64,000 bases of DNA. Origin: Conexibacter sp. DBS9H8. GTDB taxonomy: Bacteria > Actinomycetota > Thermoleophilia > Solirubrobacterales > Solirubrobacteraceae. The stretch spans positions 2,046,001 through 2,110,000 of the forward strand of contig NZ_CP097128.1 in assembly GCF_023330685.1 (NCBI RefSeq), given 5' to 3'. Shown here piece by piece: positions 43,165 to 48,151 of this stretch. The translations under genes and the position numbers were made by a program. The notes beneath the pieces are model-generated. The model saw only the letters and a program-made list of their open reading frames with translations, made no database searches and was not told where the DNA came from. Every line of letters starts with the position of its first letter. Positions within the stretch are counted from its first letter, which is position 1.

Positions 43165-44073
43165 GTGATGCCGACCCCCGACTCCCCTGCGCCGATGACC
43201 CACAGTCCGGCCGGACGCCCGATCCGCGACGTCGACACGCTGCTGGAGGCGCTGCCCTACATCCGCGCGTTCCACGGCTCGACGATCGTGATCAAGTACG
43301 GCGGGGCGGCGATGACCGACCCGGTTCTCAAGGAGGAGTTTGCCCGCGATGTCGCGCTGATCAAGTACGTCGGGATCAACCCGGTGATCGTCCACGGCGG
43401 CGGCCCGGAGATCACCGCCTACATGCGCCGGCTCGACCTGCCCGTCGAGTTCGTCGACGGACTCCGGGTCTCGGACGCCGCGACCGTCGAGGTCGCCAAG
43501 ATGGTGCTCGTCGGCAAGGTCAACAAGGACATCGTCGGCCTCATCAACCGTCACGGCCAGCGGGCGGTCGGCCTCTGCGGGGATGACGGGGCGCTGTTCA
43601 CCTGCTCGCGCCAGCCGTCCCCGAGTGGCCAGGACATCGGCTTCGTCGGACGGATCGACACGGTCGACACCGGCATCCTCACCCACATCGCGACCGACTA
43701 CATCCCGGTGATCGCCTCCGTCGGCGTCGACGGGGTCGGCAACTCCTACAACATCAACGCCGACACGGCCGCCGCCGCGGTCGCGACGGCGCTCGGCGCC
43801 GACAAGGTGATGTTCCTCACCGACGTCTCCGGGTGGCTGGCGGACCCGGCCGACCCGGCCAGCCTGATTCAGGAGGCGACCGCCGATCAGCTCGCGGCGG
43901 CCCTGCGCGAAGTCGGTGGCGGAATGCGCCCCAAGCTCGAGGCGTGCCTGGACGCGGTCCGTGGTGGGGTGGCGACCGCGGTGATCGTCGACGGCCGCCA
44001 GCCCCACAGCCTGCTCGTCGAGCTGTTCACCGCCGCCGGGCAGGGCACCCTCATCCGCGGGGAGGGCCGGTGA
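43165..44073 (+). CDS. argB: Acetylglutamate kinase
   Basis: The 302-residue amino-acid kinase phosphorylates N-acetylglutamate, the second step of arginine synthesis. The phosphate-binding KYGGAAM is near residue 46, HGGGPEI near 76, and the late DVSGWLAD and EVGGGMRPKLEA segments are typical. The N-terminal helix DTLLEALPYIRAF is of the type found in arginine-feedback-sensitive enzymes. GTG 43165 and ATG 43168 are adjacent. argB lies 16 nt after argJ and overlaps argD by GTGA. Confidence 0.97.
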   Translation: MMPTPDSPAPMTHSPAGRPIRDVDTLLEALPYIRAFHGSTIVIKYGGAAMTDPVLKEEFARDVALIKYVGINPVIVHGGGPEITAYMRRLDLPVEFVDGLRVSDAATVEVAKMVLVGKVNKDIVGLINRHGQRAVGLCGDDGALFTCSRQPSPSGQDIGFVGRIDTVDTGILTHIATDYIPVIASVGVDGVGNSYNINADTAAAAVATALGADKVMFLTDVSGWLADPADPASLIQEATADQLAAALREVGGGMRPKLEACLDAVRGGVATAVIVDGRQPHSLLVELFTAAGQGTLIRGEGR

Positions 44074-45224
44074 GCCTGTCCGAACTGCAGGCGCTCGAGC
44101 GTCGCTACGTGATCGGGACCTACCTGCGCAACCCGGTCGTGTTCGTGCGTGGCGAGGGGACCCGCCTGTGGGACGACTCGGGTGTCGAGTACCTCGACTT
44201 CCTCGCCGGCATCAGCGTCCTCAACGTCGGCCACTGTCACCCGCGCATCGTCGCGGCGATCCAGGCCCAGGCGGCGACGCTCACCCACGTCTCGAACCTC
44301 TACTACACCGAGCCGGCGATGCGGCTGTCCGCCGCCCTCTCCGAGAGCGCGCTCGGCGGCAAGGTGTTCCTCGCCAACTCGGGCGCGGAGGCGAACGAGG
44401 CGGCGCTCAAGCTCGCCCGCCGCGCCCGGCCGGGCGGCGGGATCGTCGTCCTCGAGGACGGCTTCCACGGACGCACCTACGGGGCGCTGTCGGCGACCCC
44501 GCAGGAGTCCAAGCAGGCGCCGTTTGCCCCGCTCGTGCCCGGGTTCACCGCGGTCGCTCGCGACCCGGAGGCGATCACCGCCGCGGTCGGCCCCGACACG
44601 GCGGCGGTGATGCTCGAACCGATCCAGGGCGAGTCGGGCATCCACCCGCTCCCCGACCCGGTGCTGCTCGCCGCCCGGGCGGCGTGTGACCGGACCGGCG
44701 CGGTGCTCATCTACGACGAGGTGCAGACCGGGATGGGCCGGACCGGCACCGTCTGGGCGTACCAGGGCGGGCCTGTCGTCCCCGATGCGCTCACCTCCGC
44801 CAAGGGGCTCGGCGGCGGCGTCCCGATCGGGGCGCTGATCACCGGCCCGCGCCTGGCCGACACCTTCCGGCCCGGCGATCACGGCTCGACGTTCGCCGGT
44901 GGACCGCTCGTCTGCGCGGCCGCACTCGAGGCGCTGGCGATCTGCAGCGACCCGGCGCTGCTGACCCAGGTCTCCCAGCTCGGCGAGCGGCTGACGGGCT
45001 CGCTCGCCGAGCTCCCGCACGTGCGGGAGGTGCGTGGCCGGGGCCTGATGGTCGGCGTCGACCTCGACGTCGACGCGATCGACGTGGCCCGGCGCGCGCT
45101 GCTGGACCAGCGGCTCGTCGTCAACGCGACCGGGCCGGCGACGCTGCGGCTCGAGCCGCCGCTGACGGTCAGCGCCGCCGAGGTCGACGAGGCGGTCGCC
45201 CGGCTGGGTAAGCTGCTCGCGTGA
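44070..45224 (+). CDS. argD: Acetylornithine aminotransferase
   Basis: The 384-residue class III PLP aminotransferase makes N-acetylornithine. Visible marks are FLANSGAEANEAALKLAR, FHGRTYGALS, the YDEVQTGMGRTG PLP-ring segment and the Schiff-base Lys245 in TSAKGLGGGVP. GTG 44070 overlaps the argB stop codon, and the C-terminus overlaps the CHAD gene by 4 nt. argF, argG, argH and argR are not in this window, so the operon covers only ornithine synthesis. Confidence 0.97.
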   Translation: MSLSELQALERRYVIGTYLRNPVVFVRGEGTRLWDDSGVEYLDFLAGISVLNVGHCHPRIVAAIQAQAATLTHVSNLYYTEPAMRLSAALSESALGGKVFLANSGAEANEAALKLARRARPGGGIVVLEDGFHGRTYGALSATPQESKQAPFAPLVPGFTAVARDPEAITAAVGPDTAAVMLEPIQGESGIHPLPDPVLLAARAACDRTGAVLIYDEVQTGMGRTGTVWAYQGGPVVPDALTSAKGLGGGVPIGALITGPRLADTFRPGDHGSTFAGGPLVCAAALEALAICSDPALLTQVSQLGERLTGSLAELPHVREVRGRGLMVGVDLDVDAIDVARRALLDQRLVVNATGPATLRLEPPLTVSAAEVDEAVARLGKLLA

Positions 45225-46633
45225 GCCCCGAGTACGTCGCGGAGCAGCCGCTCTCCCTCCGGGTCATCGCGGCGGCCCTTGACGGTGCCTTCCGCTTCGG
45301 CCCGGTGAGCGTCCGTGAGGAAGCGCTCACCGTCTATGACACCTTCGACGGTCGGCTCGCGGCGGCCGGTCTCGCCGTGGCCGTCACCGGCCCGGAGGCG
45401 ATTCCCGCCCGGGCGCGTGCGCTCGCCGGGCGCCGCGCCCTGCTCGAGCTGGCGACCGTGACGGTGCGGACGGAGACGGTGTCGCTCTGGGACGACCTCG
45501 ACAAGACGGTCCTGCGTCTCGAGCTGATCAGCGCGCCCGGTCTCACCCCGCGCGTCCGCCTCCACGGTCTCCGCGGCTATGAGGCCGAGCGGGCGCTCAT
45601 CTTCGAGCTGCTCGCCCTCACCGAGGCGCCGCTCAGCCTGACCGACGAGGCGATCCTCGCCGCCGGCGGGCGACCCGGCGGGGTGCGGGCGAAGGTCCGG
45701 GTTTCCCTCAACCCCGGCGAGCGATCCGACGCGGCCGTCGCCGCGATCTGCCTCGCCCTGTGGGAGGTGGTCGACGCGAACCTTCCCGGTACGCTCGCGG
45801 ACACCGACGCAGAGTTCCTCCACGACCTGCGCGTCTGCGTGCGCAAGACGCGCTCGGTGCTCAAGGAGCTGCCGGGCGTGTGGGAGCCGGGGGAGCGCGC
45901 CCGCTGGCGGGAGGAGTTCCGCTGGCTCCAGCAGATCACCGGCGAGAGCCGTGACCTGGACGTCGCCCTCGAGGACCTTGACGCGCTCGCCGGCCTGCTC
46001 GAGGACGAGACGGACCGGCGCGCGCTCGCCCCGCTCGCGACCGTGATCGCCCGGCGCCGGGCGGCCGCCCGGCGGATCATGGTTCGCGAGCTGCGCGGCG
46101 GGCGAGCCCGCGCGCTCGGACCGGCGTGGACGGCGGCGCTCACCGGCCTCCCTGAGCGGTCCGAGGCCGACCGGCCCGACGGCGCGACCCCGATCGGCCG
46201 GCTCGCCGCGGACCGGATCCTTGCCGTTGCCCGCCAGATGGTCAAGCTCGGGCGGGCGATCGGCCCCGACTCGGCGCCCGAGGAGTATCACACCCTCCGT
46301 AAGCACGGCAAGGAGCTGCGCTACCTGCTCGAGCTGTTCGGGCTCGAGCTCGGCGAGCGTGAGCAGATCGCCCCGCTACTCGATGCCCTCAAGGACCTCC
46401 AGGAGGTCCTCGGCCGCCACCAGGACCGAGAGATCCAGGCCCACACCCTGCGCGGCATGGCCGAGGAGATCGCCGCCCTGCCCGGCGGCGCTCAGGCGCT
46501 GATCGCCCTCGGCCGGCTGCTCGGCGCGCTCGCCGCCGACGGTGCCGACGCGCGCGGCGAGTTCGCCGCCGCCTTTGGGGCCTTTGCCGCCAAGCCGCAG
46601 CAGGCGGCGCTCCGGACCGCGCTCGGGCGCTGA
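45221..46633 (+). CDS. CHAD-domain protein with degenerate CYTH-like N-terminus
   Basis: The 470-residue protein has a C-terminal CHAD domain (about residues 195-470), an all-helical fold rich in conserved His/Arg/Lys: FLHDLRVCVRKTRSVLKEL, ITGESRDLDVAL and YHTLRKHGKELRYLLELF are the classic patches. CHAD domains bind inorganic polyphosphate and locate to polyphosphate granules in other bacteria. The first 190 residues resemble the CYTH (triphosphate tunnel) half of CYTH-CHAD proteins but lack an evident ExExK motif. It is coupled by 4-nt overlap to argD and by TGATG to parA. Confidence 0.88.
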   Translation: MSPEYVAEQPLSLRVIAAALDGAFRFGPVSVREEALTVYDTFDGRLAAAGLAVAVTGPEAIPARARALAGRRALLELATVTVRTETVSLWDDLDKTVLRLELISAPGLTPRVRLHGLRGYEAERALIFELLALTEAPLSLTDEAILAAGGRPGGVRAKVRVSLNPGERSDAAVAAICLALWEVVDANLPGTLADTDAEFLHDLRVCVRKTRSVLKELPGVWEPGERARWREEFRWLQQITGESRDLDVALEDLDALAGLLEDETDRRALAPLATVIARRRAAARRIMVRELRGGRARALGPAWTAALTGLPERSEADRPDGATPIGRLAADRILAVARQMVKLGRAIGPDSAPEEYHTLRKHGKELRYLLELFGLELGEREQIAPLLDALKDLQEVLGRHQDREIQAHTLRGMAEEIAALPGGAQALIALGRLLGALAADGADARGEFAAAFGAFAAKPQQAALRTALGR

Positions 46634-47385
46634 TGGCGACCGTCATCGCCACCTACAACATCAAGGGCGGGGTCGGCAAGACGTCCGCCGCTGTCAACCT
46701 CGCCTACCTCGCCGCCCGCGACGGTGGGCGCACCCTGCTCTGGGACCTCGACCCCCAGGCGGCGTCGACGTACCTGTTCCGGATCCGTCCGCGTGTGCGG
46801 GGCGGCTCTGACGCGCTCATCCGCCGTCGCACCCCGGTCCTCGCCCAGATCAAGGCAACCGACCACGATCGCCTCGACCTCCTGCCCGCCGACTTCTCCT
46901 ACCGGCACATGGATCTCGCCCTCGACAGCTTCAAGCATCCGACCCGCCGGCTCGCCAAGGTGCTCGAGCCCCTCGCCGAGGACTACGACACGATCTTCCT
47001 CGACTGTCCGCCGTCGATCTCGCTCGTCTCCGAGTCGGTCTTCGACGCCGCCGATGTGCTGCTCGTTCCGATCATCCCGGCGACCTTGTCCTCCCGCACC
47101 TTCGACCAGCTCGCCGAGCTTGCCGGCGCCGCCGGGGGGCCGCGCGTGTTTGCCTTCTTCTCCATGGTGGAGACTCACAAGGCCCTGCACCGCAGGGTGA
47201 TGGCCCGCCTCCGGGGCGTCCATCAGCTGACGATGCTCGGCGCGGCGATCCCCGCCTCTGAGGACGTCGAGGCGATGGGGGAGGAGCGCGATCCCGTCGG
47301 CGCCTTCGCCCCGGCGTCGAGCGCGGCGATGGCCTATGAGGCCCTGTGGTGGGACCTCCGCCGTCGGCTCGCCGTTCCCGCGTGA
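46633..47385 (+). CDS. ParA-family P-loop ATPase
   Basis: The 250-residue ATPase has the deviant Walker A KGGVGKTS with signature Lys (about residues 11-18), Walker A' LLWDLDPQAAS and Walker B TIFLDCPPS. These are the elements of ParA/MinD ATPases that form gradients on the nucleoid or membrane and position cargo. No parB, parS-like repeats or chromosome-origin genes are nearby. Its start overlaps the CHAD stop codon, so the pair is co-translated and the CHAD protein or its granule is a candidate cargo. A second candidate partner, a coiled-coil protein, follows. Confidence 0.9.
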   Translation: MATVIATYNIKGGVGKTSAAVNLAYLAARDGGRTLLWDLDPQAASTYLFRIRPRVRGGSDALIRRRTPVLAQIKATDHDRLDLLPADFSYRHMDLALDSFKHPTRRLAKVLEPLAEDYDTIFLDCPPSISLVSESVFDAADVLLVPIIPATLSSRTFDQLAELAGAAGGPRVFAFFSMVETHKALHRRVMARLRGVHQLTMLGAAIPASEDVEAMGEERDPVGAFAPASSAAMAYEALWWDLRRRLAVPA

Positions 47386-47417
47386 GACGCGGCGGGATCT
47401 CCCTTACCCTTGCGGTG

Positions 47418-47441
47418 ATGCCGTCGGGACGAGCCTTGTGA
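47418..47441 (+). CDS. Candidate 7-codon mini-ORF ahead of the coiled-coil gene
   Basis: ATG 47418 follows TACCCT (47405-47410) by 7 nt, the leaderless spacing used elsewhere in the window. It encodes MPSGRAL and its TGA overlaps the ATG of the coiled-coil gene as TGATG. This would load ribosomes onto that gene by termination-reinitiation. It is an inference from layout only. Confidence 0.35.
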   Translation: MPSGRAL

Positions 47442-48151
47442 TGCGGGACACCAGCTCCGAGCAGATGCTCATCGAGCGCCAGTTGCGGGCCGCGGAGATC
47501 GCGCTTGCGACCGCACGGCAGCGACGCTTTGACAATGACGAGGCGATCCGCACCCTGCGGGCCCAGGTCGCCGACGTCGAGTCAGCGCTGGAAGCGAGCA
47601 TCGCCGCCCGTGAGCGCGACCTCGAGCAGTATCAGGCGGCCTTGGAGAGCGCCCGCCGGCGGGCGGTGGAGGCCGAGCAGCGTTACCTCGGTGAGCGACG
47701 GCGCGCGAGCGCCCTCGAGCAGGAGCTCGGCGCCGTCCGCGCCGAAGCCGAGCAGCGGGACCACCTGCGCAGCCAACTCGCGGCCGAGCAGCGGGTCCGT
47801 CGTCTCGAGGCCGAACTCGAGTTCGTCCTCCGGCGCGCCGCCGAGTTCGAGCACGGCATCCGGATCGCCGTCCTCGACGCGTTCACGGTGCTGCGCGGCG
47901 CCTCGACCCGCCTTGACGCCGTCCTCACCGCCGCCGGTCTCCCCGAACTCCCCGGGTTGTCGGGGTTGTCCGCGCGTCCGTGGGGCACGGTGGAGCCGTC
48001 GTCGGGCTTCGAACCGGCCGCGCCTGCCGGGGGCCCCACGGTCCCGTCCGGTCCGTCGCGGCCGGTCCCCGACCGGCTCGAGTCCGACCGGCTCGACGCC
48101 GCGCTTGAACGGCTGCGGGCGAGCACCCCCGCCCCCGAGGACGTCGCGTAG
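47441..48151 (+). CDS. Coiled-coil protein of unknown function
   Basis: The 236-residue protein is not recognised by family. Residues about 8-150 form a long heptad-rich coiled coil (RQLRAAEIALATARQRR ... LEQELGAVRAEAEQRD ... RVRRLEAELEFVLRRAAEF). A Pro/Gly-rich disordered region (about 175-215) and a short amphipathic C-terminal helix (LDAALERLRAST) follow. There is no membrane segment. ATG 47441 (or GTG 47438) follows parA by 55 nt. The combination of coiled coil, disorder and a ParA neighbour recalls adaptor proteins that link ParA ATPases to cargo, but the sequence alone does not prove this. Confidence 0.75.
   Translation: MRDTSSEQMLIERQLRAAEIALATARQRRFDNDEAIRTLRAQVADVESALEASIAARERDLEQYQAALESARRRAVEAEQRYLGERRRASALEQELGAVRAEAEQRDHLRSQLAAEQRVRRLEAELEFVLRRAAEFEHGIRIAVLDAFTVLRGASTRLDAVLTAAGLPELPGLSGLSARPWGTVEPSSGFEPAAPAGGPTVPSGPSRPVPDRLESDRLDAALERLRASTPAPEDVA

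Follow-up and report, generated by a model that had tools for sequence, protein, structure and literature searches.

Does a ParA-type ATPase encoded next to a CHAD protein position polyphosphate (polyP) granules in bacteria? This question is raised by a gene pair of Conexibacter sp. DBS9H8, which we analysed in a stretch of 64,000 nucleotides of contig NZ_CP097128.1 (positions 2,046,001 to 2,110,000, hereafter the window). An earlier note, made from these letters alone, had proposed that a CHAD gene, a parA gene and a coiled-coil gene, all on the forward strand, form a positioning system for polyP granules. The CHAD protein, its dedicated ParA and the link to polyP are supported by conservation, by gene neighbours and by the pair of Chlorobaculum tepidum, whereas the coiled-coil adaptor is not. 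We are highly confident that the CHAD-ParA pair is one functional polyP module and, by analogy with known ParA systems, consider it probable that the pair positions or partitions polyP granules.

Conservation of the CHAD-ParA pair

The CHAD gene (45221..46633, GTG start, 470 amino acids) encodes the candidate granule adaptor and parA (46633..47385, 250 amino acids) a member of a clade of CHAD-linked ParAs. The two are joined by a TGATG stop/start overlap (46631..46635), in which the CHAD stop codon TGA (46631-46633) shares a base with the ParA ATG at 46633, exactly as had been read from the window sequence. With the ParA protein as query, 80 loci were recovered from public bacterial genomes; 58 of them have CHAD as the next gene upstream in the same orientation, with gaps mostly of -4 to +22 nucleotides (81 paired entries, some loci being repeated). 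Paired loci come from Solirubrobacterales and other Actinomycetota, Gammaproteobacteria, several deltaproteobacterial groups, SAR324, Chlorobiota, Acidobacteriota, Planctomycetota and Nitrospirota, and the pair is present in at least eight phyla. It should be noted that many paired loci are metagenome bins, of which single taxon labels may be wrong while the overall spread is not in doubt, and that at L004 and L008 the contig ends at the locus, which makes adjacency uninformative there. An apparent natural CHAD-ParA fusion (L161) was rejected, as its frame crosses a scaffold gap of N.

The two genes also occur together. By P values that treat genomes as independent, which genomes are not, a strong CHAD accompanies the ParA orthologue among 101 relatives (26/26 genomes with ParA versus 4/75 without, Fisher P = 3e-20) and again in an even draw of 322 gammaproteobacterial genomes, of the class to which L064 belongs, where ParA is found in 48 (CHAD in 43/48 versus 64/274 of the others, Fisher P = 1e-18). 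Of the 49 gammaproteobacterial ParA genes, 38 have CHAD immediately upstream, among them all those that score above 319 bits. The breadth across phyla is a stronger argument than these P values. The pairing proposed from a single genome is therefore confirmed, across phyla and far above chance.

In the window, an argD open reading frame (ORF; 43833..45224 by its mechanical start, the gene onset being near 44070) ends in a stop codon (45222-45224) that overlaps the CHAD start. Because of this overlap and that of CHAD with parA, we read argJ-argB-argD-CHAD-parA as one operon with the pair at its tail. The pair is likewise situated in argJ-argB-argD operons across Solirubrobacterales, and relatives retain the argD-CHAD linkage with parA present or not. 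This context would suit a pair that the arginine operon brought together by chance and whose members are functionally unrelated; such an accident is already refuted by the recurrence of the pair in many contexts and phyla, and we give it practically no credence.

The polyphosphate link of the CHAD protein

Outside Actinomycetota, the pair is found among polyP genes. PPK1 is near it at 12 of 47 non-actinobacterial loci, and other neighbours are PPK2, Ppx/GppA, CYTH triphosphatase, SixA-like phosphatase, PhoU, PstS/PstC and H+-pyrophosphatase. The gene order in Chlorobaculum tepidum (G458) is PPK1, an ORF of 282 amino acids, CHAD and ParA, and this CHAD is the crystallised polyP-binding protein (100% over 310 residues). 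A profile of the paired CHADs matches the same CtCHAD of Chlorobium tepidum (PDB 6QV7, 3E0S) with E about 1e-100. A polyP 9-mer was co-crystallised with CtCHAD, whose binding is weakened by changes at His253, Arg256, Arg260 and Arg296 (PMC6537752). As a separate observation, PPK1 stands directly before a ParA of the CHAD-linked type at L234:5632-8686 (G274), no CHAD being found at E<=1e-10.

The window protein has the features of a CHAD phosin, namely a CHAD domain with the conserved polyP-binding histidine and arginines. Pfam CHAD (PF05235) covers residues 180-411 (E=2e-47), and the C-terminal part of its AlphaFold2 model (predicted local distance difference test, pLDDT, 94; predicted template modelling score, pTM, 0.88) matches the CtCHAD-polyP structure 6QVA with a TM score of 0.93 by target (Foldseek). 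Its His201, Arg204 and Arg208 (codons in 45821..45844) correspond to His253, Arg256 and Arg260 of CtCHAD, and Arg244 (45950..45952) to Arg296, numbered by alignment; all four are invariant among 31 paired CHADs. Ralstonia CHAD proteins localise to polyP granules, while Ralstonia and E. coli showed no apparent phenotype when CHAD proteins were deleted, the former as cited and the latter as stated in PMC6537752.

The beta-rich N-terminal part of the model shows a weak likeness to triphosphate tunnel (TTM) enzymes (TM score by target about 0.5), and the model as a whole resembles YgiF (both Foldseek). Pfam CYTH gave no match in nine paired CHAD relatives. The catalytic ExExK motif is absent from the first strand of the window CHAD, and among the 31 paired CHADs it occurs as two chance matches, off the first strand as far as judged. 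Because this motif is missing, the domain is probably a dead TTM fold. From sequence comparison, it may be the part of CHAD that docks ParA: the CHADs of three arginine operons (L269, L270 and L271) have no TTM-like N-terminal domain and come from genomes with no detected orthologue of the CHAD-linked ParA, which hints at such a role. Several gammaproteobacterial CHADs that adjoin ParA have short open frames, and this counts against the idea. The C-terminal RxxFxxxFxxF tail of CHAD was rejected as a docking motif, being unspecific and found also in long CHADs with no ParA at the locus; it falls inside the crystallised CHAD construct.

A dedicated ParA and its probable cargo

The window ParA matches Pfam AAA_31 (E=2e-29) and carries the deviant Walker A YNIKGGVGKT, whose KGGVGKT (46663..46683) has K11, G12, G13, V14, G15 and K16 invariant in 40 orthologues. 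The CHAD-linked ParAs thus have the KGGxGK[T/S] motif with signature lysine of the ParA/MinD (A/D) ATPases, and also the linkage to a cargo or partner gene by which that family is known, here through CHAD adjacency and polyP neighbours. The window protein is 46-71% identical to orthologues across phyla, and the 40 orthologues share the family motifs LLPADFSYRHMD, FFSMVDRRKxLH and ExMGxxRxPV. These ParAs begin at the Walker A, without an N-terminal DNA-binding domain. The closest solved structures by E-value are 8ray and then 1wcv (Soj), and the McdA structures 6noo and 6nop match at E about 1e-12 to 1e-13. A maximum-likelihood tree separates the 40 orthologues from the ParB-adjacent ParA of the genome, the chromosomal-type ParAs of relatives and the Soj structures (support 88/80) and unites its five Geobacter-type rows in one clade (100/100). 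By analogy with these ATPases, we propose that the CHAD-linked ParA would bind the nucleoid in an ATP-dependent manner and hydrolyse ATP when stimulated by its partner.

The earlier note had reported no parB or parS at the locus and had allowed that parA might be the chromosomal ParA with a distant parB. ParB_N matches occur in the whole genome only at C1:553248 and C1:1639649 (0.553 and 1.640 Mb), none of them inside the window, which bears out the first statement; a canonical parS was not found within 3 mismatches in the window, which says little since none is found within 2 mismatches genome-wide. The CHAD-parA locus does not have the adjacent parB of a ParABS system nor, on the weak evidence of the parS search, its parS. 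The second possibility was checked and does not hold, as the other clear ParA of the genome adjoins ParB at 0.55 Mb, 1.5 Mb from the pair. The genome also encodes a ParA-like ATPase at C1:1.92 Mb (L252:5684-7117), with no ParB_N match nearby.

These observations bear on the idea that the pair works as a module for partition of the chromosome or of DNA, where CHAD takes the place of ParB and polyP acts as a counter-ion or DNA competitor. The ParA clade is related to Soj by sequence, as such a module would have it, but the genome has the separate ParA adjoining ParB, the pair's neighbours are polyP genes, and CHAD has no DNA-binding domain; RcCHAD and SsCHAD were tested and neither bound DNA (PMC6537752). 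We hold this idea to be highly improbable.

ParA may instead act as a regulatory switch, which would sense nucleotide state and, through CHAD, control PPK or polyP turnover, or tether polyP enzymes to the nucleoid, with no spacing of granules. The tight linkage to PPK1, Ppx, CYTH and Pst suits regulation as well as positioning, and FleN/FlhG are examples of ParA/MinD members with a regulatory and not a segregating role. However, the conserved partner is a granule-surface phosin and no enzyme, and the short, deviant-Walker-A, non-FleN-like ParAs characterised so far position cargo (PMC10241942). We regard such a switch as unlikely.

The third gene of the original proposal, which encodes a coiled-coil protein with a proline-rich C-terminus (47441..48151), does start with an ATG at 47441, 55 nucleotides past the ParA stop, as described. 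This proximity is what a three-part system with the coiled-coil protein as essential adaptor would build on. Yet in 28 genomes of the genus a clear relative was found in G004 only (E 9e-6; blastp 3e-8), where argG intervenes between parA and the gene; in G023 (L276:9804-11981) argG and dnaE flank a coiled-coil ORF, with parA elsewhere; and other relatives carry argG or a membrane protein, isochorismatase or CYTH gene after parA. A three-part system is thus very unlikely: the gene is nearly private to the window genome, its role as a third component is unsupported, and it was rejected as a conserved adaptor for not being kept beside the pair in relatives. In the window it is a fast-evolving gene just upstream of dnaE; it goes with the dnaE side of the locus and lies outside the conserved system. 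A downstream coiled-coil gene in Solirubrobacter was discarded, its reading frame being only the shadow of a sigma factor gene that runs on the opposite strand. CHAD, and not the coiled-coil protein, is likely to be the cargo adaptor.

Another kind of protein is a candidate third component in some lineages, judging by its likeness to known granule tethers. At eight gammaproteobacterial loci, parA is followed by a gene for a small helix-hairpin-helix protein with a very lysine-rich tail (Pfam HHH_5 in the L048 copy, E 5e-13), and at one Acidobacteria locus a similar helix-hairpin-helix, lysine-rich protein precedes CHAD. These proteins are encoded at L039:2461-2913, L046:1051-1536, L048:8902-9282, L049:8910-9281, L050:8851-9195, L052:6309-6686, L054:6683-7051, L058:5971-6363 and L044:1306-1794. 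Lysine-rich-tail ORFs are enriched adjoining the pair (16 of 19 unique, Fisher P = 4e-10). The granule-to-DNA tethers AlgP and PhaH have histone-like (KPAA-repeat) or helix-hairpin-helix DNA-binding parts (PMC13052382, PMC9239181). Near orphan Geobacter-type ParAs, a small protein of another type, also with a lysine-rich tail, was observed (L057:1399-1770, L062:9079-9525, L066:4373-4705, L067:8814-9164, L069:9209-9532 and L070:9214-9531).

If the pair does position granules, CHAD would bind polyP at the granule surface and serve as cargo adaptor, while ParA would bind ATP, dimerise and coat the nucleoid. Granule-bound CHAD would then stimulate the ParA ATPase, leading to local ParA release, and granules would be spaced along the nucleoid and divided between daughter cells in the way that carboxysomes are by McdA/McdB. 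We infer in this way a physical CHAD-ParA contact, ATPase stimulation, nucleoid binding and granule spacing. With somewhat less assurance than for positioning itself, we favour the wider proposal of a widespread, ATP-driven system for polyP granules, in which a CHAD phosin would be the adaptor and the helix-hairpin-helix lysine-rich protein would join as DNA tether in some lineages.

Several observations weigh against granule positioning. In the window the pair stands among arginine genes, with PPK1 at a distance of 0.28 Mb in the same genome. The N-terminus of the window CHAD is not basic and its model is ordered throughout, so no basic, disordered peptide of the kind usual in partners is evident, and the tails of the paired CHADs have a barely positive net charge (median +2). 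At position 182 of ParA, where arginine is nearly invariant in the family, the window protein has histidine. Furthermore, 14 Geobacter-type and 4 Solirubrobacterales ParA loci are not beside CHAD, and 5 of the 48 gammaproteobacterial ParA genomes have no CHAD at E<=1e-10; two further loci among the 80 are also unpaired. Partners of ParA/MinD ATPases usually have a positively charged, disordered N-terminus (PMC10241942), which is a property of the partner and not of the ATPase family, and there may be another partner or another mode of contact. CHAD is present somewhere in 24 of 24 genomes behind the non-adjacent and other loci, Geobacter-type included. Two Geobacter-type genomes (G101 and G113) also carry the canonical CHAD-ParA-CYTH set, and their orphan ParA is therefore probably a paralogue.

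Some ParAs away from CHAD have other surroundings. In Solirubrobacterales, one at L017:4302-8729 (also L018, L029 and L031) is divergent from a large cyclase-AAA-TPR gene, with ThiI nearby. Lower-scoring members at L235:5265-7076, L239:8234-10165 and L243:5503-7473 stand beside genes of the AMP-binding acyl-CoA ligase type, and their cargo may be a different one, such as a lipid inclusion.

Comparison with known systems

In a search of published, openly available papers, we found none that brings CHAD, ParA and positioning together. The seven ParA/MinD systems of Halothiobacillus treated in a 2023 study are said there to cover all known protein cargos of the family, and the word phosphate is absent from that study (PMC10241942); a 2025 review lists AlgP of Pseudomonas aeruginosa as the sole positioning factor for polyP granules, with ATP use marked unknown (PMC13052382). 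If our reading is true, the CHAD-ParA pair would be the first ParA/MinD system with a polyP condensate as cargo. PolyP granules occur widely, with an even placement in several bacteria, and the conserved pair would offer a genetic handle on their positioning in tractable hosts such as Chlorobaculum tepidum. Many ParA ATPases that are otherwise orphans would also gain a likely cargo, and CHAD proteins a physiological role. Such a system would be directly testable and would bring a new cargo to ParA/MinD positioning.

What is apparently the same pair is conserved in one genus, Acidithiobacillus, where the order folD-ppk-parA-CHAD was noted in 2019 and 2024; it was mentioned in passing in work on cyclic AMP signalling and copper, with no wider survey and no positioning proposed (PMC6416229, PMC10892726). 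AlgP on polyP granules and PhaH, PhaF and PhaM on polyhydroxybutyrate granules similarly link granule to nucleoid, and the gammaproteobacterial helix-hairpin-helix protein resembles them in general design; however, they are passive DNA tethers with no known ATPase and no homology to ParA. Chromosomal ParA/Soj shares the Walker motifs and is among the closest solved sequences, but the CHAD-linked ParA forms a separate clade, has no ParB or canonical parS and has CHAD as its partner. The CHAD phosins (CtCHAD, the Ralstonia CHADs and PptA of Streptomyces) have the same true CHAD domain, and CtCHAD is itself encoded beside a CHAD-linked ParA; they were published as stand-alone polyP binders, whereas members of the paired subgroup also have a degenerate TTM-like domain and a ParA encoded with them. 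In McdA/McdB, as here, a dedicated short ParA/MinD-type ATPase is encoded beside cargo genes and a partner other than ParB coats the cargo, and the Brownian-ratchet mechanism is likely to be the same. McdA is only a distant relative of the CHAD-linked ParA, and no McdB-type small adaptor is conserved beside the pair; CHAD occupies that place, so that the cargo would be polyP granules and the partner a folded TTM-like and CHAD protein instead of the small McdB.

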